This document shows, piece after piece, positions 441-21,864 of a stretch of DNA of 35,170 nucleotides (the first letter of the stretch is position 1; each line of letters begins with the position of its first letter). The stretch comes from a virus. The notes beneath the pieces were generated by a model that was not told where the DNA came from, did not search any database, and saw only the letters and a program-made list of their open reading frames with translations. The stretch lies in the IMG/VR virus record IMGVR_UViG_3300037502_001007, positions 1-35,170 of that record; one strand, given 5' to 3'. A program made the position numbers and the translations under genes.

Positions 441-1933
<1,493 letters not shown>

Positions 1934-1937
<4 letters not shown>

Positions 1938-12668: not shown

Positions 12669-12875
12669 TTACTCTGTTGTTTTGACTTCTTCAATGACCA
12701 CCACAGGAGCAGTCATGTTGTACTTCTTCAGCAGGGCCAAAGCAACGGCTTCGGCTGTATCAGGTTTTGCAGTGGCCTTTGCAAGCTCACCAGCGTCAAC
12801 CACCATGCCACGTGCGACAAGATCAATGTCGCCGTAGCTGGTCACAATTGCTTCAATTGCGTCTGAGACTTTCAT
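12669..12875 (-). CDS. Small protein after the tail-tube gene, unknown function (68 aa)
   Basis: I choose the ATG at 12875, which overlaps the stop of the second tail-tube gene (TGATG), giving MKVSDAIEAIVTSYGDIDLV and an end at EEVKTTE. An upstream start at 12929 in the same frame would overlap the tail-tube gene by 55 bases and is less likely. The product is acidic, helical and Ala-rich (AGELAKATAKPDTAEAVALA). It could be a tail assembly factor by position; nothing else supports a function. Confidence 0.6.
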   Translation of the reverse strand: MKVSDAIEAIVTSYGDIDLVARGMVVDAGELAKATAKPDTAEAVALALLKKYNMTAPVVVIEEVKTTE

Positions 12876-13393
12876 CAGTTGTTCGACCAGCCGTACTGGT
12901 TGCCTCGCGGATGAATGGTAAACATACATTTAGCTTCAGCGCCGGGAGCAGCGTCAATTTGGAATTGACCCACGCGACCATTGAACGCATAAGCGACAGT
13001 GTTTGAACCCTCAACTGCTGCAACCACGAAAGTGCGGTCCACAACACCAGAGTAAGCGTCAGAACGAATCTGCAACAACGCTGTGTCAGCAGGATTCCAA
13101 GCAGCCGTAATGGTCATGCTTGTAGGAGCCGCTTGCACAGGAATTTTGTCGCTTTGACGAGAGCCAGCAACACCGAAACTTGCAACAGCATCATCCTGAC
13201 CAAAAGCAGGAATCGCCTCGACAGGAACAGCAACGCCAGCCGCGCCTGTGCCGCCAGCAGAAGTGCCAACAATGGTGGCAACTTGAGCAGACCAGACAGA
13301 CAGGTTAGCTGTTGTCAAAGGCGTTGGAGTGGCAGACGATTGCATCCAAAGTGATGCGCTAAATCCGGGTAGAACTTTTGCAGGGATAGACAT
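12875..13393 (-). CDS. Tail tube protein paralog 2 (172 aa)
   Basis: It shares long identical blocks with the gene just upstream: IPAFGQDDAVASF, VAGSRQSDKIPVQAAP, TSMTITAAWNPAD, DAYSGV, FNGRVGQFQID, PGAEAK and the end TIHPRGNQYGWSNN. The 'P....G.......' layout with a 'TITAAWNPAD' block and a C-terminal 'F.i...G....W' block fits small major tail proteins of siphoviruses. Differences cluster in the N-terminal third, where this copy has an insertion (TSAGGTGAAGVAV). One copy may form the tube and the other a minor or terminal ring; which is which cannot be told from sequence. A good spacing and AGGAG lie before the start. Confidence 0.82.
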   Translation of the reverse strand: MSIPAKVLPGFSASLWMQSSATPTPLTTANLSVWSAQVATIVGTSAGGTGAAGVAVPVEAIPAFGQDDAVASFGVAGSRQSDKIPVQAAPTSMTITAAWNPADTALLQIRSDAYSGVVDRTFVVAAVEGSNTVAYAFNGRVGQFQIDAAPGAEAKCMFTIHPRGNQYGWSNN

Positions 13394-13402
13394 CTCAACT
13401 CC

Positions 13403-13897
13403 TTATGCGTTGTTAGACCAACCGTACTGGTTGCCACGGGGATGGATCGTGAATGTAGCTTTTGCTTCTGCACCGGGAGCAGAATCAATCTGGAACTGGC
13501 CTACACGCCCGTTAAAGGCGTAATAAACGATGTTTGACCCCTCAGTAGCCGAAACTACGAAAGTGCGGTCAATGACCCCAGAATAAGCATCTGCTCGCAT
13601 CAACAGCAAGTTAATATCGGCAGGATTCCATGCAGCCGTAATGGTCATGGAAGTTGGAGCAGCCTGAACCGGAATTTTGTCGGATTGACGCGAACCAGCC
13701 ACGCTGAAACTAGCCACAGCATCATCTTGACCAAAAGCAGGGATTGCTTCGACAGGAATCAGGTTGCCGCTAACAGCAAGAGGAGCAACACTGGCGACCA
13801 AGGACAACTGTGCAGTAGTCAAAGGAGTAGGTGTGGCTCCGGGTTGTGCGTACAACGCCGCGCTAAAACCGGGGAGAACTTTGTTTGGTAAAGCCAT
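13403..13897 (-). CDS. Major tail tube protein paralog 1 (164 aa)
   Basis: The protein starts MALPNKVLPGFSAALYAQPG and carries the same blocks as paralog 2 (VEAIPAFGQDDAVASF, SRQSDKIPVQAAPTSM, AWNPAD, FNGRVGQFQID, HPRGNQYGWSNNA). It comes first in the transcript and lies after the tail terminator-like gene, the normal place of the major tail protein. The two genes are separated by 9 bases. An AGGAT-type ribosome-binding site precedes the ATG. No Ig-like C-terminal extension is present. Confidence 0.84.
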   Translation of the reverse strand: MALPNKVLPGFSAALYAQPGATPTPLTTAQLSLVASVAPLAVSGNLIPVEAIPAFGQDDAVASFSVAGSRQSDKIPVQAAPTSMTITAAWNPADINLLLMRADAYSGVIDRTFVVSATEGSNIVYYAFNGRVGQFQIDSAPGAEAKATFTIHPRGNQYGWSNNA

Positions 13898-14698: not shown

Positions 14699-15370
14699 TT
14701 ACATCACCAATGGTTTGTACGAACGCAGCAAGGTGGTCACGCCAAACGGAATGTCTTTCAGCTTAGTCTCTGTCGCATTGGCACGGTTGTTATACAAATG
14801 CGTGAGCAACAACAAGCCAGCTTGCTTGATGACAGGGTAAGCAGACAAAGGATTGGCAACAGTTGTGTATTGCACAATGATTGGCGCAGTCATCACCGAA
14901 TTAACATCAGTGGGCAAGTTGTTCACAATCACTTTGTTGCCAGAGGCATCGTAGTAATAGCTTGAACTTGGCAATGTCATAAACACTGGAGGAAAAGCAT
15001 CATTCCAGTATCCAACCAAATCAATTGTTACAGCAGCCTGATTTGCATAAAAATTCTGACTGACTTCAGGCAAATCAAAACTAATAGGTGATGCCACAAG
15101 GCTCTCAGAACCGTACCAAACGCGATAACTTACCGGGAAGATAGACATTCCCAAGTAGTCTTCAATTGCTTGCCGTGTAGCCAGTTCAAGAGAAGACAAA
15201 TAAGTGTCTTGGCTCTCGTCTTGGAACAAATTTAGTTGTTGCGTGATTTCATCAAGCGTCAACCAAGCTGTAGAACTATCACGCCCAATCTGTTCAACTT
15301 TTGCATAGTTAAACGGATTGCGTGTTTGCGCCCCAAAAGGCGCGGCGTATTGATAGTTGTCAAAGCTCAT
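14699..15370 (-). CDS. Head-tail connector gp6-like protein (223 aa)
   Basis: The segment AWLTLDEITQQLNLFQDESQ ('lt.de...l.l...d..d..l..li..A....e...g....' in the family) is followed by YLSSLELATRQAIEDYLGMS, RVWYGSE and the C-terminal helix block YPVIKQAGLLLLTHLYNNRA ending in FGVTTLLRSYKPL. This is the classical gp6/phiE125-type adaptor layout ('P..i..A.l.lvah.yenR......... P.gv..Ll..yr'). It forms the ring under the portal. It lies 2 bases downstream of the second capsid gene. Confidence 0.85.
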   Translation of the reverse strand: MSFDNYQYAAPFGAQTRNPFNYAKVEQIGRDSSTAWLTLDEITQQLNLFQDESQDTYLSSLELATRQAIEDYLGMSIFPVSYRVWYGSESLVASPISFDLPEVSQNFYANQAAVTIDLVGYWNDAFPPVFMTLPSSSYYYDASGNKVIVNNLPTDVNSVMTAPIIVQYTTVANPLSAYPVIKQAGLLLLTHLYNNRANATETKLKDIPFGVTTLLRSYKPLVM

Positions 15371-15372
15371 GT

Positions 15373-16416
15373 TTAAGTCTCAATTGCACGAACACCAGCA
15401 AAAACGTCACGCACAGTAGTGACCATGCGCTTTTCAGCATACATTTGCACAAAGCCGGGAGTGGTTTGCTCCATTGCTTGAATGGTCATTTCTTCCACAT
15501 CGGCAATCGTCATAAAACGAGGCCAGTTGGCAAGATAGACAGGCTTTGCACCAACAGTTCCGATTGCATCCAAATATGGGTTTGGAATCACAGGAAAACC
15601 AAAAACGTGCAGCAAAGAACCCGCTTCAGCAGAGCCAGTTTCAACAAAACTGTATGCGCCGTTTTGGTGAGCATATTTACGCAAAGCACTGATGGCAGAT
15701 GGCGACATCATCCAAGCCGTACCGGGAAGATTCCAGTATTGACCCGGCAAAACACTTGCCATGTCCACCAGAGTTTCCATGTCCAAGCCAGCAGTGTTGT
15801 TAAAGCCCACGGAAGCGATGTTGTGGCGACCGTTGGTGATAGCCGTACCACTTGTACCAAAAGCAGCAGCAGAGCCAGCAACGCCGGGATAGCTGTTAAG
15901 GCCACGCAGACCATCAGTTGCACCAGTTGCTGTGGTAGTAGAACCAGCTTGGTCGTTGTTGAGGCCAGCAGATGCGCCTTCGATCTGAGCGAATTCCATC
16001 ATCAGGTCTTCAACCAACTCAGCATTCAAGCCGTTGACATCGGACAGCACTGCCGAGCGAATAGGCATTTGTGCGGAGATGACGCGAGTTGGCAGTTGCC
16101 AGATGCTTGTGTCAATGTTGGGCGAACCGCTGTTGGGGTTGACTGTGTAGCCCCAAGGGTTTGTGCTGTTAGCAGCGTTACCAGTTTTGGCAACAAACTG
16201 AACAGCGGAATTTCCGGGTACTTTGATGTTTCGTGCGACTAGGCGAAACGGGTTCGCATAACGCAGCGTAGCAAACGCATCATCAAAGTGAGTGCGACCA
16301 CCGACATTCAGTCCTGAACCAGTGATAGCAGATGCCTCGCGCAAGTCAATCGTGACTTTATCGCCAGTTTCCAAGGTTTGCTTAAACCCAGACAGGATGC
16401 GTTCGGTAATGGTCAT
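15373..16416 (-). CDS. Second HK97-fold capsid protein, no scaffold domain (347 aa)
   Basis: From about residue 26 the protein aligns with the larger capsid gene: REASAITGSGLNVGGRTHFD against the LKEASALTGG...GGRTAYD segment, DTSIWQLPTR against DTSIWQIVLQ, the NNDQ motif, PGQYWNLPGTAWMMSP against PQQYWTTNAKFMVSP, and PGFVQMYAEKRMVTTVRD against PGFITFFGEKRLATSVRD. It lacks the roughly 100-residue N-terminal coiled-coil delta region. A terminator precedes it, and it has its own AGGAA ribosome-binding site. It may be a pentamer/vertex protein, a minor shell subunit or an alternative capsid subunit; position and similarity cannot decide. Confidence 0.85.
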   Translation of the reverse strand: MTITERILSGFKQTLETGDKVTIDLREASAITGSGLNVGGRTHFDDAFATLRYANPFRLVARNIKVPGNSAVQFVAKTGNAANSTNPWGYTVNPNSGSPNIDTSIWQLPTRVISAQMPIRSAVLSDVNGLNAELVEDLMMEFAQIEGASAGLNNDQAGSTTTATGATDGLRGLNSYPGVAGSAAAFGTSGTAITNGRHNIASVGFNNTAGLDMETLVDMASVLPGQYWNLPGTAWMMSPSAISALRKYAHQNGAYSFVETGSAEAGSLLHVFGFPVIPNPYLDAIGTVGAKPVYLANWPRFMTIADVEEMTIQAMEQTTPGFVQMYAEKRMVTTVRDVFAGVRAIET

Positions 16417-16439
16417 ATCAGTTCCTAAATTATTGGCAC

Positions 16440-16466
16440 AAAAAGGAGGGGGAATTAACCCCCTCC
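16440..16466 (-). terminator. Intrinsic terminator between the two capsid genes
   Basis: On the minus strand an 8-bp perfect GC-rich stem (GGAGGGGG with CCCCCTCC, 16445-16466) with a 6-base loop is followed by a run of five T (16440-16444). It lies 7 bases after the stop of the large capsid gene and before the second capsid gene's ribosome-binding site. It probably lowers, but does not abolish, expression of the downstream genes, since no separate promoter is evident. Confidence 0.85.
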
Positions 16467-16472
16467 GATTTA

Positions 16473-17822
16473 TCAGGTAGCTGTACCTGTCGAGCGATAA
16501 CGCACACCTGCGTTTGGATCGCGCACAGACGTTGCCAAACGCTTCTCACCAAAGAAGGTAATAAAGCCGGGCAATGTCTGGTCATAACGGCGCATGACCA
16601 TGTTCAAGCGATCCACGATAGTGTGGAAGCGGCTCCAATCAGCAAAGTACATTGGGTACAGGCTGTTAGTGCCAGCAGTGCCAGTTGTGGCTTGGCTAGG
16701 AGCGTCCAAATAGCGGTTCATTACAACGTCAAAGCCGAGCATTTGACCGATGATGCCATCGGGGTTCAACGACTCAGTAGAGTTGAAGATCGGACGACCA
16801 TTAGTGTCTTGCAGACCACGGATGGCTTGGGCCAAGATTGGGCTAACCATAAACTTGGCGTTAGTAGTCCAATACTGCTGTGGCAAAGCGTAGATCAAGT
16901 TGATAACGTCTTTGTACTGGATGTTGTTAGCACCCACAGTGTTGGCGTTGGTGGTCAACTGGTCGTAAGTAGCCAGCGAGTGCAGACCGCTTGTAGAACC
17001 AGTACCAGAGCTACCAAAAGCAGGAGCAGAAGTTGTACCGCCAGTGTAAGTTGCGTTAGAACCAGCGTACTGATCCAAACCGCGCAAACCGTTAGTACCA
17101 CCGTAAGGGTTGTTAACGCCTTGAGCAACTTGGTCGTTGTTCTGGATCATGCTGAGTGCCTCGCTCTGCGAGAAGGAGGCGAGCATGTCATCAACAACAA
17201 CAGCTTCCAAACCATCAATGTCGTCCAGCGCGGCTGTACGGATTGGGAACTGGACGTTCAAGTCTTGCAAAACAATTTGCCAGATAGAAGTGTCTTCAGT
17301 TGTAGGAACGCCGTTGTTCTGAATGGCATAGCCCCACTGCTCACCGGGGTTGCCCACGCGAACACGGAACTGATAGGACGAACCATCAGTTGCAACAGTG
17401 CGAGAAACACCGCGCATTGGGTTCATCAGACGCAGAGCCGTAAAGGTTGGATCGTAAGCAGTACGACCACCCTTACCATCACCACCACCTGTCAGAGCCG
17501 AGGCTTCTTTCAAGTACGCATCCATTTGGGCTTCATCTGCAAAGATTTGCAGTTCTTTTTCCAAACGGTTGTTGCCTTTGTAGAAGCTAGACAGTTGCTC
17601 ACGCACATGACGGTTCACATCTTGGCGAACAGTTTTTGCAGGAGTGCGAATGAACTCAGGAATCTGAATGGAGGCAACTTTGGCTTCCAGAGCAGACACC
17701 ATTTCGGTCATTTCAGCTTTGACAGCCTCAACAGCAGCAGGGATTTTGGCTTCAACAGCCGAGATGCCTTCAGCTTGTTTAGCTTCAATGGCATCCAATT
17801 TTTCGAGGATAACTTGGGACAT
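16473..17822 (-). CDS. Major capsid protein, HK97 fold (449 aa)
   Basis: Residues 1-55 form an Ala/Glu-rich coiled-coil-like region (MSQVILEKLDAIEAKQAEGI, then EAVKAEMTEMVSALEAKVAS), the delta-type internal scaffold of HK97-family capsids. The shell part begins near residue 105 (KEASALTGGGDGKGGRTAYD) and ends at GEKRLATSVRDPNAGVRYR. The typical 'P.R' and 'TS..' features of the E-loop region are present as FRVRVGNPGEQWGYAI. The upstream protease gene supports removal of the delta region during maturation. Directly followed by a strong terminator, consistent with very high expression of this gene relative to those downstream. Confidence 0.9.
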   Translation of the reverse strand: MSQVILEKLDAIEAKQAEGISAVEAKIPAAVEAVKAEMTEMVSALEAKVASIQIPEFIRTPAKTVRQDVNRHVREQLSSFYKGNNRLEKELQIFADEAQMDAYLKEASALTGGGDGKGGRTAYDPTFTALRLMNPMRGVSRTVATDGSSYQFRVRVGNPGEQWGYAIQNNGVPTTEDTSIWQIVLQDLNVQFPIRTAALDDIDGLEAVVVDDMLASFSQSEALSMIQNNDQVAQGVNNPYGGTNGLRGLDQYAGSNATYTGGTTSAPAFGSSGTGSTSGLHSLATYDQLTTNANTVGANNIQYKDVINLIYALPQQYWTTNAKFMVSPILAQAIRGLQDTNGRPIFNSTESLNPDGIIGQMLGFDVVMNRYLDAPSQATTGTAGTNSLYPMYFADWSRFHTIVDRLNMVMRRYDQTLPGFITFFGEKRLATSVRDPNAGVRYRSTGTAT

Positions 17823-17825
17823 GAT

Positions 17826-18626
17826 TTAACCTTTAAGACGTTGGTCAAGGAGTTTAAGAAGTTCACGCTGCTCAAGAGCCGCAAGAATTTCTGCTTCGGT
17901 TGCCTCCGCATCAGAATCACTCTGAATTGGCGCATTTTCAATAGGCTCTTTTACAGCATCACGCTGCTCAATTACCGTCTTGAACACAGATGCGGCGGCA
18001 ACCGACATCTGCTTGGACAGACCTGCATCCCGCAAGGCTTCTTCCAATACTTTCAAATCAGCAGAGCCATCAGGTCGGAAATATTCCAACTTTTTGATTT
18101 CTGCTTTCATGTTATTTGGGTACATCACAACGCTAGTTTCGCGCAAACCACCTTTAATGATTTGGAAATAGCCTGACTCATGTGGATCGTCATAATCCTT
18201 GTCCATAGAATCACCATTTTCATTAACAAACTGGTATTCGTCAGCATAAGCGCCAACAGAAACCCCGCCAAACATATTGGGGGATTCCTTCATGACTTGA
18301 TACAAATCAGAGCCAGTTGTGGTGTTGAGATACAAGCGACCAGTAGCGTTCATGCCCTCGTCATCCATCTCAATGCTTGTCCATTCACCAACAGGGATAG
18401 CGTCAGCATTGTGGTTGACGTACATGGGAAGTGGTCGGCCCATTTCGGCAAACTCTTTGGCCCATTGCATAAAGCCTTCTGGCTTGTAGTAAAACTTACG
18501 ACCATCAGCGCCTTCCCGTGCGCCCCAAGTCGTAATGCGAGCCTCAATCTGTCCAGACGGTTCGCCGTTGTTGGCTTTCTCGTTGAGATTGAGCTTGGCT
18601 TCGCAGATTAGATTCAATGTCTTCAT
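17826..18626 (-). CDS. Prohead maturation protease, U35-like (266 aa)
   Basis: The protein carries GQIEARITTWGAREGADGRK near the start, the conserved His motif PMYVNHNADAIPVGEW (His72), and the Ser motif MFGGVSVGAYADEY (Ser123), the catalytic pair of HK97-type prohead proteases; the segment LRETSVVMYPNN is the usual following 'E.S.v..Pan' block. The last 70 residues form a charged, helical tail. It lies between portal and major capsid, 3 bases before the latter. An AGGGG ribosome-binding site precedes the ATG. Confidence 0.92.
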   Translation of the reverse strand: MKTLNLICEAKLNLNEKANNGEPSGQIEARITTWGAREGADGRKFYYKPEGFMQWAKEFAEMGRPLPMYVNHNADAIPVGEWTSIEMDDEGMNATGRLYLNTTTGSDLYQVMKESPNMFGGVSVGAYADEYQFVNENGDSMDKDYDDPHESGYFQIIKGGLRETSVVMYPNNMKAEIKKLEYFRPDGSADLKVLEEALRDAGLSKQMSVAAASVFKTVIEQRDAVKEPIENAPIQSDSDAEATEAEILAALEQRELLKLLDQRLKG

Positions 18627-18737: not shown

Positions 18738-18766
18738 ATTGTGTATCAGTTTGCATGATATATCAA
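18738..18766 (-). promoter_or_regulatory. Possible sigma70-type promoter for the capsid module
   Basis: On the minus strand TTGATA (18761-18766) and CACAAT (18738-18743) are 17 bases apart, overlapping the end of the portal gene. The -35 box matches the consensus at 5 of 6 bases; the -10 box at 4 of 6. A transcript from here would have a leader of about 100 bases containing three hairpins. By-eye call only. Confidence 0.35.
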
Positions 18767-20160
18767 GTAGTGCCAATATTCATTTTTCTGGTCTGATTAC
18801 CACCACCGCCACCAGTATCTTGACTGCTTGTGCCGGGTACAGGTTCAGCGTCCTTTGTATCCTTGACCAACTCATTGCCATCTTCTACCGATGGCAAATT
18901 CATGTAGTTACGGGCTTCGTTAGGTGTCATGATGCCACCTTTTACGCCAGCAGTGGCAAAGTTCATCTGATCCAAAGGCGCACCCTTCAAGAAATCCTTT
19001 GTATCAAATTCGATACACAAAGAAGGATAGCCCTCAAGCAAATGTTGCGTCAACTTCTGTTGAATGTTGACGATTGTCGGGTACATGGTGGTCTTGTAGA
19101 ACTCATCCAAAGCCGTTTGGCTGTTGTTGAACTTGCCATCATGAATACCAATCATAGAAGGCGGCACACCAAACAAACCGCAGATTCGGCGCATAGTCAT
19201 GAGCTTCAAAGCGGCTGCGTCAGTGTCCTGCAAGGTCAGCATCTCCAGCTTCTCATACTTCATGCCCTGATCCAGCAACATACCCTGACCCGGCTTGCTT
19301 GGGTCACTGGTCTTGCTGCCTGTCATGTTGTTCCACGCCTCTTTCAGACGGGCGGCAATCTCTTTGTATTTGCCATCAGGAATAACCTGATCGGTCACAA
19401 ACATCCCGCTAGGCTTTGCACCATTCTGCATGACAAAGTTGGCGTACAGGTCAATGTCTTGGTCAAGGCCAACCAATTCAGTCGCCAAAATTGCTTTGTT
19501 GAAGCCAGCCGAGCCTTGCCATGCCATTTCCTTGCCGTGCATGACTTGGTAATACTTGAACTCATGGTCTTTGTTAAAACCATAGCTCGGGGTAGACAGT
19601 CGGAATGTCGGATAGCGTGTAGGCGTAATGTTCACCGCAATCAGCGTTGAATCCAGCACATACATCTCAAGCGGAGTCTCGGTGGAACTGTTCTGGTCTT
19701 TCCTCCACCACAAGGTAAAGGCTTCACCAGACAACTCGTACCACATCAGCCACTGATACCAGAACTCATATTTGCTCTGAAAGTTGTTCGGGTTGCCCAA
19801 AAGCCTAGCAACTTGCTTTGCTTTGGCCCTGTCTCGCGCACCAACACCTTCGCCTCTGATGGCATCAACCATTTTGCCATCAGCCATTTCGCAGCAAACT
19901 TTGATTGGCAATTGAGCCAAAGCACGGGCTTTTACACCCACACAGGACATGATTGTGCTGTTTCTGGTCAGCACAGACATATCCACCGGGCGACCAGCAG
20001 TTGTTGTGCTGGCAGTGGTTACATAAAGGATTTGGGTATTGACACCAGCACGTTTATCGCTTCCTTGATAAACTATGTTGTTGCCGAGGGCTGTCTGACC
20101 GAACAATGTATTGCTCTCAGACTGAGTGTTTTTGCGCTTGAAAATGTCAAAAATCGCCAT
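18763..20160 (-). CDS. Portal protein, HK97 family (465 aa)
   Basis: Key segments follow the HK97-portal order: MSVLTRNSTIMSCVGVKARA LAQLPI (split here as MSVLTRNSTIMSCVG and VKARALAQLPI), LLGNPNNFQSKYEFW, LSGEAFTLWWRK, LGVPPSMIGIHD-like segment in the form LFGVPPSMIGIHDGKFNNS, and the C-terminal MTPNEARNYMNLPSVEDGNE. The C-terminal tail is Gly-rich and polar (GTSSQDTGGGGGNQTRK). It forms the 12-mer ring through which DNA is packaged. It is downstream of the terminase genes by 24 bases. No clip-domain abnormality was seen. Confidence 0.93.
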   Translation of the reverse strand: MAIFDIFKRKNTQSESNTLFGQTALGNNIVYQGSDKRAGVNTQILYVTTASTTTAGRPVDMSVLTRNSTIMSCVGVKARALAQLPIKVCCEMADGKMVDAIRGEGVGARDRAKAKQVARLLGNPNNFQSKYEFWYQWLMWYELSGEAFTLWWRKDQNSSTETPLEMYVLDSTLIAVNITPTRYPTFRLSTPSYGFNKDHEFKYYQVMHGKEMAWQGSAGFNKAILATELVGLDQDIDLYANFVMQNGAKPSGMFVTDQVIPDGKYKEIAARLKEAWNNMTGSKTSDPSKPGQGMLLDQGMKYEKLEMLTLQDTDAAALKLMTMRRICGLFGVPPSMIGIHDGKFNNSQTALDEFYKTTMYPTIVNIQQKLTQHLLEGYPSLCIEFDTKDFLKGAPLDQMNFATAGVKGGIMTPNEARNYMNLPSVEDGNELVKDTKDAEPVPGTSSQDTGGGGGNQTRKMNIGTT

Positions 20161-20184: not shown

Positions 20185-21864
20185 TTACCACTCAATTGAC
20201 CTAAAGCCAAATGATTCGCTGACAAATACGTTATCCAAATGACAGTGCAAAGCCATAATCATGGCAATAATACCGTCCACTTTAGCTGACGGGTCTGCTT
20301 CGTTCTTTCTGACCTTCACGTTGCCGTTCACATCAGTGTAAACCTCACAGTTTCCTAGCTGCCAACCAACAAACGGGTTGCCATCATGATGAATTGCCTT
20401 CTTCAAAATCAGTTGCTCAGTAGTCTTGGACGGGTTTGACAGCATCGCCATGCCCTGACCAACCTTTTTAACAGGCAAGCCATCAGCGTACAGGTTAGCC
20501 ACCAAAGCAGCGGCGTTGTACGGGTCATAGGCAATTTCTTTGACGTTGTGCTTCTCGCATTCCTGCTTGATGTAGTTCTGAATCTCAGTCAAGTCAGTCA
20601 CGTTGCCGGGTGTGAGCCTCAAAATGCCAGTTGAGTGAGCCTGAGAAAAAATACTCTTGTAGTGGTTCGGGATTAGCTCAATCGATTCCTCTGGCAAGAA
20701 GAATTGAAACTTGGCATAGAAATTTTCCTCACTGTACCTGTGCAAAGTACAGACAGCGTTCAAATCTCGGGTATGCGCCAAGTCAAACGCAACAAATGTC
20801 GATTCTGGTTTGTCAGTCGGGAAAGGCGCAATCGACTCATCCCAATACCTACGGTCAACCCAAGCAGAGTTAGCCGACACATAGATGTTTAGCTGCTTAC
20901 ACAGAAATTCGTTTAGGCTTGCTGGCTTGGCAGACGCTTCTTCAGCCATCTGCTGAATGTGCTGCGTAGTGACAGACACCCCAAGCATCGGGTTCGCTTT
21001 GCCCCATACCGCAGGATCAGCCCAATTATCTCCGGGATCAATGCTATAGAGTAGACCAAACCAGCGGAAACTATCAGGAGCAGCGCCACGCAGGACAGTG
21101 CGAAAGTGTGAAAGGTCTTCAAAGAACTTGGTTTCCTTGGTGAAGCTGGCAGTTGTTAGATACATCCGCAATGGGTTCTTCCGAGCGCCCATACCAGAGT
21201 GCAACACCTCAATTGACTGTCTCTCAGTAATCTGAGCAGCTTCGTCAATCATGGCGCAAGACGGGTTTTTACCGTCACCAGTTTTGCGGTTTTCCCGTGA
21301 TAGCGCACGGTAGGTAGAAGTCGAGTCACCAGCCTTTTTCAGTTCACTACGGTAGGCAATGAACTTAGCCCCCAACTCAGGCTTCATGTTCTCTACGATT
21401 GCCTTGGACGAATCAAAGCAAATGCTCGCCTGATCCCTGTTGGTAGCCAGAGTAAACACTTCAGCACCAGCATCACCAAACTGCAACTCATACAGCGCAA
21501 TGATGGACGCAATGGTTGTCTTGCCAGATTTTCGAGGCACAAACAAAATGACATCAGTGACATAGCGATATGTGTGGTCTTTCCTGTCTCTGAACCCATA
21601 GATAGCCGCCAAGTACATGATTTGGAACGGCTGAAGCTCAATGGATTTCCCGGCATCCGGGCCTTTGACATGGCGGCAAAACTTGACGAATTTGAGGATG
21701 TGTTCAGCCTTGGCAGGGACAAACTCGTAAGGCGCATCCTTACGTTCGACCATATCCAAAAACCGTTGGCAAGCTAGTTTGACATCCTCACACGCCTGAA
21801 TGTCACCCCTAGTTACCGCTACCGCATACTCAAACGCAGGGTTAAGCAGTGGCGAATAACTCAT
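20185..21864 (-). CDS. terL: Terminase large subunit (559 aa)
   Basis: The ATPase domain has Walker A FVPRKSGKTT (residues 109-117) and Walker B SCAMIDEAAQ (residues 202-210, DE at 207-208), and the 'ELQPFQIMYLAAIYG' block before them is the Q-motif-like segment of Terminase_1-type proteins. The C-terminal nuclease has candidate metal-binding Asp residues in FVAFDLAHTRDL (Asp361), EIAYDPYNAA (Asp447) and KVDGIIAMIMAL (Asp530). Length and layout fit the HK97-like terminases that package via cohesive ends; the packaging mode is inferred. The start overlaps the small subunit gene by 23 bases. Confidence 0.94.
   Translation of the reverse strand: MSYSPLLNPAFEYAVAVTRGDIQACEDVKLACQRFLDMVERKDAPYEFVPAKAEHILKFVKFCRHVKGPDAGKSIELQPFQIMYLAAIYGFRDRKDHTYRYVTDVILFVPRKSGKTTIASIIALYELQFGDAGAEVFTLATNRDQASICFDSSKAIVENMKPELGAKFIAYRSELKKAGDSTSTYRALSRENRKTGDGKNPSCAMIDEAAQITERQSIEVLHSGMGARKNPLRMYLTTASFTKETKFFEDLSHFRTVLRGAAPDSFRWFGLLYSIDPGDNWADPAVWGKANPMLGVSVTTQHIQQMAEEASAKPASLNEFLCKQLNIYVSANSAWVDRRYWDESIAPFPTDKPESTFVAFDLAHTRDLNAVCTLHRYSEENFYAKFQFFLPEESIELIPNHYKSIFSQAHSTGILRLTPGNVTDLTEIQNYIKQECEKHNVKEIAYDPYNAAALVANLYADGLPVKKVGQGMAMLSNPSKTTEQLILKKAIHHDGNPFVGWQLGNCEVYTDVNGNVKVRKNEADPSAKVDGIIAMIMALHCHLDNVFVSESFGFRSIEW

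Follow-up and report, generated by a model that had tools for sequence, protein, structure and literature searches.

A conserved second HK97-fold capsid gene, proposed to encode a vertex subunit, in a group of small freshwater phages

Two divergent HK97-fold capsid genes lie side by side in the head operon of a virus whose IMG/VR record, 35,170 bases long, is hereafter called the window. The first, A, encodes a major capsid protein with an N-terminal delta-type region, and the second, B, encodes a shorter paralog without that region, which accompanies A throughout a large group of relatives and occurs as divergent alleles that are repeatedly exchanged between phages with nearly identical A proteins. 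In the reading that we prefer, and to which we assign a probability of about 55%, B is a dedicated shell subunit that forms homomeric pentamers, with A providing the hexamers and the scaffold. In most tailed phages a single protein makes up both pentamers and hexamers, the vertex protein of T4 being the textbook exception. If the proposal is true, these phages would offer a second, seemingly independent split shell with a cultured member at hand, and a simple system for asking how and why a shell splits in two and whether loss of the scaffold domain belongs to that step.

Two HK97-fold genes in one head operon

The head operon is encoded on the minus strand in the order terminase, portal, S78 protease, A, B and head-tail adaptor Ad1, followed by the tail genes (Table 1), and only 2 nt separate B from Ad1 directly downstream. 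BLASTP aligns A with B from B18/A95 to B343/A441 at 39% identity and 53% positives over 355 columns (E = 6e-61), a similarity far beyond chance, and both proteins exceed the 24.2-bit cut-off of Phage_capsid (PF05065), A scoring 92.4 bits and B 69.3 bits. The earlier note had described the two genes as divergent HK97-fold paralogs, the second of them lacking the scaffold domain, and both parts of that description hold. In A, a delta/coiled-coil region takes up approximately residues 1-95, and AF2 predicts a long helix for residues 2-51, at the position of the HK97 delta domain; B has no equivalent, and its N-terminus is predicted to form only a short helix (residues 3-17). When a delta-type scaffold is defined by a helical region of ~100 residues before the shell domain together with an adjoining S78 protease, A has one and B does not. 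The S78-type protease would be expected to remove the delta region of A. B begins approximately where the shell domain of A begins, so that its N-terminal region is shorter than that of the major capsid protein; in every B protein sampled, the part that aligns with A is preceded by only some 20-25 residues, and across the pairs B is always the shorter protein (326-360 aa versus 423-477 aa).

Table 1. Features of the window and of related loci, with positions as start and end on the strand given.
Feature	Position	Strand	Details
Source record	35,170 bases		IMGVR_UViG_3300037502_001007, IMG/VR virus record
Terminase large subunit	20185..21864	-	PF20441, PF03354
Portal protein	18763..20160	-	PF04860 2e-59
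S78-type prohead protease	17826..18626	-	PF04586 1e-7; phrog_80
Gene A, 449-aa HK97-fold major capsid protein	16473..17822	-	PF05065 4e-26; phrog_10 major head protein 8e-25
Terminator-like GC hairpin, then T-run	16445..16466	-	8 bp, 7 GC
Gene B, 347-aa HK97-fold paralog of A, allele type I	15373..16416	-	PF05065 5e-19
Conserved first ~100 nt of B, upstream swap junction	16317..16416	-	high nucleotide identity between swapped alleles
B codons 1-25	16342..16416	-	low dS
A-domain of B, aa 161-298	15523..15936	-	limits from AF2 secondary structure
Head-tail adaptor Ad1	14699..15370	-	phrog_40 5e-12
Major-tail-protein-like gene	13403..13897	-	weak phrog_158
Major-tail-protein-like gene	12875..13393	-	weak phrog_158
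498-aa tail-region protein	441..1937	-	collagen-like repeats (PF01391, E 2e-39)
Inserted ORF, L024	5355-6000
Inserted ORF, L050	5356-6000
Inserted ORF, L003	7616-8245
Inserted ORF, L012	7594-8220
Inserted ORF, L059	7702-8328
Inserted ORF, L075	2901-3437

Both AF2 models are of moderate confidence, with poor E-loops (pLDDT 67 and pTM 0.69 for B; pLDDT 59 for A). The capsid protein of the Rhodobacter capsulatus gene transfer agent (RcGTA; 6tb9) is the best PDB match of the A model (Foldseek E 8e-15) and is also matched by the B model (Foldseek 2e-15; VIA Z 21.6, 264 aligned, rmsd 4.0), which in addition matches HK97 prohead I (Z 17.9). The predicted HK97 fold of B is thus well supported, and a comparison of predicted structures, proposed earlier as a check, gives the same fold for the two shells rather than different folds.

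Spread, age and setting of the pair

Wherever a locus carries A with at least 900 nt of downstream sequence, B adjoins it (190 of 190 loci, some on contigs fetched twice, with 122 distinct A+B pairs). Since loci fetched with an A query are included, this figure is not an artefact of a B-based search, and the proposal that the pair be sought in related genomes is thereby answered. In viral contigs, 371 stretches encode relatives of A and 248 encode relatives of B. Among cultured phages, close relatives of A and B occur in one of 50,697 phage records, that of the Methylophilaceae phage P19250A, in line with the earlier remark that such a pair is unusual in small siphoviruses. Our genome collection contains relatives on 6 contigs only, all of them in metagenome-assembled genomes and with the same A-B order where both genes are present, so that no firm host can be named. 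The group is one of small freshwater phages, large and common in metagenomes, and neither the group-wide conservation of the pair nor the two-allele state of B is visible from one genome. A search for tandem PF05065 pairs across 300 genomes from the order of G001 was discarded because it failed on its positive control, the known second copy in G001, and apparent inserts or introns inside A turned out to be match ranges in which A and B matches had been merged.

In a tree built from 103 proteins of each kind, which has no root relative to other phages, A and B stand on opposite sides of a long branch with a support of 100, and identity as A or B changes once on the tree. Two fully separated clades imply one old split, and the single, fully supported branch between them places this split before the radiation of the group. 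A tblastn search with A against the 50,697 phage records at E values up to 1 yielded, beyond P19250A, weak matches of 20-34% identity. Without an outgroup beyond these, the split cannot be rooted, and duplication, which would be the simple reading of the origin of the pair, is indistinguishable from capture of a distant capsid gene, which might be the alternative. A-B identity is no different within genomes than between genomes, so that nothing points to gene conversion within the pair.

Median dN/dS values of 0.092 for the A shell and 0.098 for B indicate purifying selection on both proteins. These values bear on the proposal that B acts outside the virion, whether as a decoy for a capsid-sensing defence, as an assembly factor, or as a poison of the heads of competing phages or satellites. 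By analogy with HK97, B alone would probably be unable to build shells without a delta region, and capsid homologs acting against other elements do exist, Ccm being an example (PMC8569155). A protein with such a role would hardly be expected, however, to keep its whole HK97 body under selection about as strong as that on A, to share 55-odd identical columns across all sampled A and B proteins, or to lie inside the head operon and never be missing, and we therefore consider a non-virion role improbable. The decoy idea, which the earlier note had raised, is disfavored in particular because strong purifying selection acts along all of B and because B is always present.

The 56 nt between A and B contain a hairpin followed by a T-run, as had been noticed before, which reads GGAGGGGG-TTAATT-CCCCCTCC-TTTTT on the minus strand, the hairpin running from 16466 to 16445. 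The intergenic sequence varies widely among relatives but the hairpin structure is kept: all 120 of the relatives' intergenic regions examined fold with a z below -1.5, and a fixed rule finds a stem followed by a T-run in 106 of them, compared with 5 of 600 shuffles. A scan of the whole region for terminator-like sites shows no excess over shuffles (15 versus 13 +/- 4). A Shine-Dalgarno-like site precedes B in 113 of 122 cases. Our interpretation is that the hairpin acts as a leaky terminator or forms a 3'-end, which would make A the most expressed gene. A lower dose of B had been deduced from this element in the earlier note; the hairpin is indeed conserved, but the connector and tail genes downstream of A are equally behind it, and it is therefore not specific to B. 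Its position would say only that B is unneeded at the level of A and is grouped with lower-copy parts.

Allele exchange of B

In the window's clade, B falls into two main allele types that are approximately 67% identical and about equally common (40 and 38). When loci with A proteins at least 95% identical are paired, the identity of B is bimodal, at 65-70% in 25 of the 55 pairs and at least 90% in 18. In L099 and L058, for example, A differs at 3 residues and B at 31%, and across swaps A can be up to 99% identical. For this pair, as for others such as L047 and L141, the nucleotide sequences are 87-100% identical (mostly above 95%) across A, the spacer and roughly the first 100 nt of B. Within the body of B the identity falls to 47-83%, and immediately past the B stop codon it is back at 98-100%; the B types thus swap almost cleanly at the gene borders. 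Similar exchange of B is seen in the clade of P19250A (L168/L157). The first 25 codons of B show a dS of 0.28, compared with 0.5-1.0 in the rest of the gene, as would be expected of a shared recombination junction or of a constrained translation start.

Mapped onto the A tree, B type changes 20 times, compared with a mean of 26.2 in 100 label shuffles, so that B type is only weakly associated with A ancestry. Among loci with an A at least 85% like that of the window, a divergent B (below 75% identity) is found in 52%, whereas the corresponding share for the terminase, portal, protease, adaptor, tail terminator and tail genes is 0-16%. No gene partner tracks B type among the 50 ORFs of the window across 8 long contigs, and two genomes that carry type I (G316) and type II (G307) are equally similar to the window in nearly all shared genes except B and the tape-measure region. 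The exchange of B is probably the most unusual point of the pair. It may be that this exchange is the main point, B being a face of the capsid on which balancing or diversifying selection acts, with two allele pools kept and swapped by the phages, a reading that is compatible with a vertex role and that we hold only tentatively. The selective agents offered as examples are an exposed ligand at the vertices and host defences that sense capsid proteins, a kind of defence that exists in CapRel, which is reported to be activated by a phage capsid protein (PMC9712102). Selection on B would agree with the excess of divergent alleles over every other gene tested, with the weak link between B type and A ancestry, and with the lack of any window gene that tracks the type. 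Nevertheless, dN/dS within B types, a coarse measure, is 0.098 with no sign of recent positive selection, and frequent homologous recombination with little selection could yield the same picture. Equally tentative is the combined possibility that the vertex subunit exists as two long-lived, freely exchanged alleles, the five-fold corners being variable under balancing selection and the remainder of the shell constant. Each swap is in effect a natural replacement experiment and yields predictions as to the surfaces in contact with the major protein; the question that follows is why selection should favour two versions of a capsid component.

Two further observations were made in these loci. In several relatives (Table 1), free-standing ORFs of ~176-207 aa have been inserted in the space between A and B or in that separating Ad1 from the gene after it. 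They resemble homing endonucleases in that one of them has a match to NUMOD3 and a weak one to GIY-YIG, and elements of this kind could promote the local exchange of genes around B. The large terminase also has a second allele, ~60% identical, which is carried by 6 of the 38 loci having an A of at least 85% identity (relatives L029, L057 and L081).

Proposed role of A and B, and known two-protein shells

The A-domain is the part of an HK97-type shell subunit that packs about the centre of the capsomer. Column entropy in B peaks at aa 201-220, 241-260 and 281-300, and types I and II are 53% identical in the A-domain compared with 74-77% in aa 26-160 and 299-347, which comprise the N-arm/E-loop, spine and P-domain. 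Among all B proteins, the A-domain is 57% identical and the other parts 69-73%; between A and B the corresponding values are 36% and 45-48% for the other shell parts. This pattern fits self-contacts within homomeric capsomers, as would be expected of B if it meets only itself around an axis. Among all A proteins, however, variability is likewise higher in the A-domain than elsewhere (74% versus 80-85% identity), and the pattern is therefore partly a general property of the fold.

These values also bear on the possibility that B is a shell subunit but not a vertex protein, being mixed into hexamers or occupying a special place, such as the portal surround or a size-setting position, with its dose determined by the hairpin. 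A could alone form the pentamers, as in most phages, with B elsewhere. The HK97 fold of B, with its conserved P-domain, E-loop and N-arm, its fixed presence, and its location 2 nt from the connector gene Ad1 would all suit such a subunit. If B were randomly mixed with A in one ring, however, the opposite pattern of variation would be expected, in that B should keep an A-domain that fits A, and this is the very region in which A and B are 36% identical and the B types 53% identical while A is up to 99% the same. On these grounds we regard a non-vertex position as doubtful.

Our preferred reading, in which B forms the pentamers, can be put as a sequence of steps. A, with its delta region, would nucleate and scaffold the procapsid and form its hexamers. 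B, descended from one old capsid-gene split and without a scaffold of its own, would join shells nucleated by A at their curved five-fold positions, where it would most likely form homomeric pentamers at the eleven vertices not taken by the portal. The hairpin after A would keep the level of B, like that of the connector and tail genes, lower than that of A, and the protease would cut off the delta region of A, B needing little or no trimming. Around the five-fold axis the A-domain of B would touch only B, and its N-arm, E-loop and P-domain would face the A hexamers; because the A-domain contacts only B in this arrangement, a divergent B could replace the whole of B without any change in A, and replacements of this kind are seen in the genomes. 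The homology of A and B, their fold, the fixed pairing, the old split, purifying selection, the conserved hairpin and the swapping are shown by the data; the pentamer position, the presence in virions and the stoichiometry of B are inferred. The earlier interpretation, which had listed a vertex or pentamer subunit among its options, is right in outline and partly supported, and this option would be the best fit.

In both HK97 and RcGTA, one capsid protein forms pentamers and hexamers; HK97 gp5 and the RcGTA capsid protein share their fold with A and B, and their fused-scaffold logic with A. T4 provides a close parallel, in one phage, of two HK97-fold paralogs, the second with the shorter N-terminal region: gp24* forms the pentamers and is ~20% identical to gp23*, an origin by duplication being thought likely, gp24 loses 10 N-terminal residues and gp23 65, and some gp24-bypass mutations map to the A domain of gp23 (PMC9958956). 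Unlike T4, the present phages are of siphovirus type with genomes of ~36-39 kb, their scaffold is fused to A, the protease is of the S78 type, A and B are 39% identical, and B is swapped between phages. In the satellite SaPIbov5, the capsid-protein homolog Ccm (24% identity) forms all pentamers and the phi12 capsid protein all hexamers, and contacts inside the capsomers of procapsids are made only between like proteins (PMC8569155). Ccm therefore replaces the main protein in HK97-like pentamers, as is proposed for B, but it is satellite-encoded, has its own delta domain (residue 88 is the first of the mature sequence) and redirects capsid size, whereas B lacks a delta domain and lies in the phage's own head operon between the major capsid protein and connector genes.

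Of the paralogs found for B, the nearest belong to the A proteins of the group itself, and gp24 and Ccm are absent among the listed structural matches of the models, a result with which similarity is still compatible. The origin of the A/B pair looks independent of gp24. As no kinship with gp24 was seen and B is not of satellite origin, we place the pair with neither system. Family 2B encapsulins (PDB 9bje and 9bix), which are among the structural matches of B (Z 16-17), also have two-subunit HK97-fold shells, but these are cellular compartments rather than phage heads. We found no description of paralogous HK97-fold capsid genes in small siphophages in the open-access literature, which is weak evidence of absence; the pair would be a variant of the two-protein HK97 shell, new in the searched literature, in small phages.

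The sole cultured relative known, P19250A (KX815270), is a more distant member of the group with the same gene order, in which A is 58% and B 56% identical to the window's proteins; its A is annotated as 'gene transfer agent capsid protein' and its B as 'hypothetical protein'. Venkman EXVC282S (L215, MT375522) has been reported as similar in synteny to P19250A (PMC8163748), but neither A nor B has a match in it at E 1e-5, and the annotation lists a separate scaffold gene, a single 326-aa capsid gene and 'tail tube A/B' names. In the window, two tandem major-tail-protein-like genes, 74% identical to each other, follow the head genes; many relatives have both, and P19250A and some others have one match. 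With the A/B pair, the main head and main tail subunits are thus both doubled in this phage. The tail-region protein with collagen-like repeats (Table 1) is poorly conserved among relatives.
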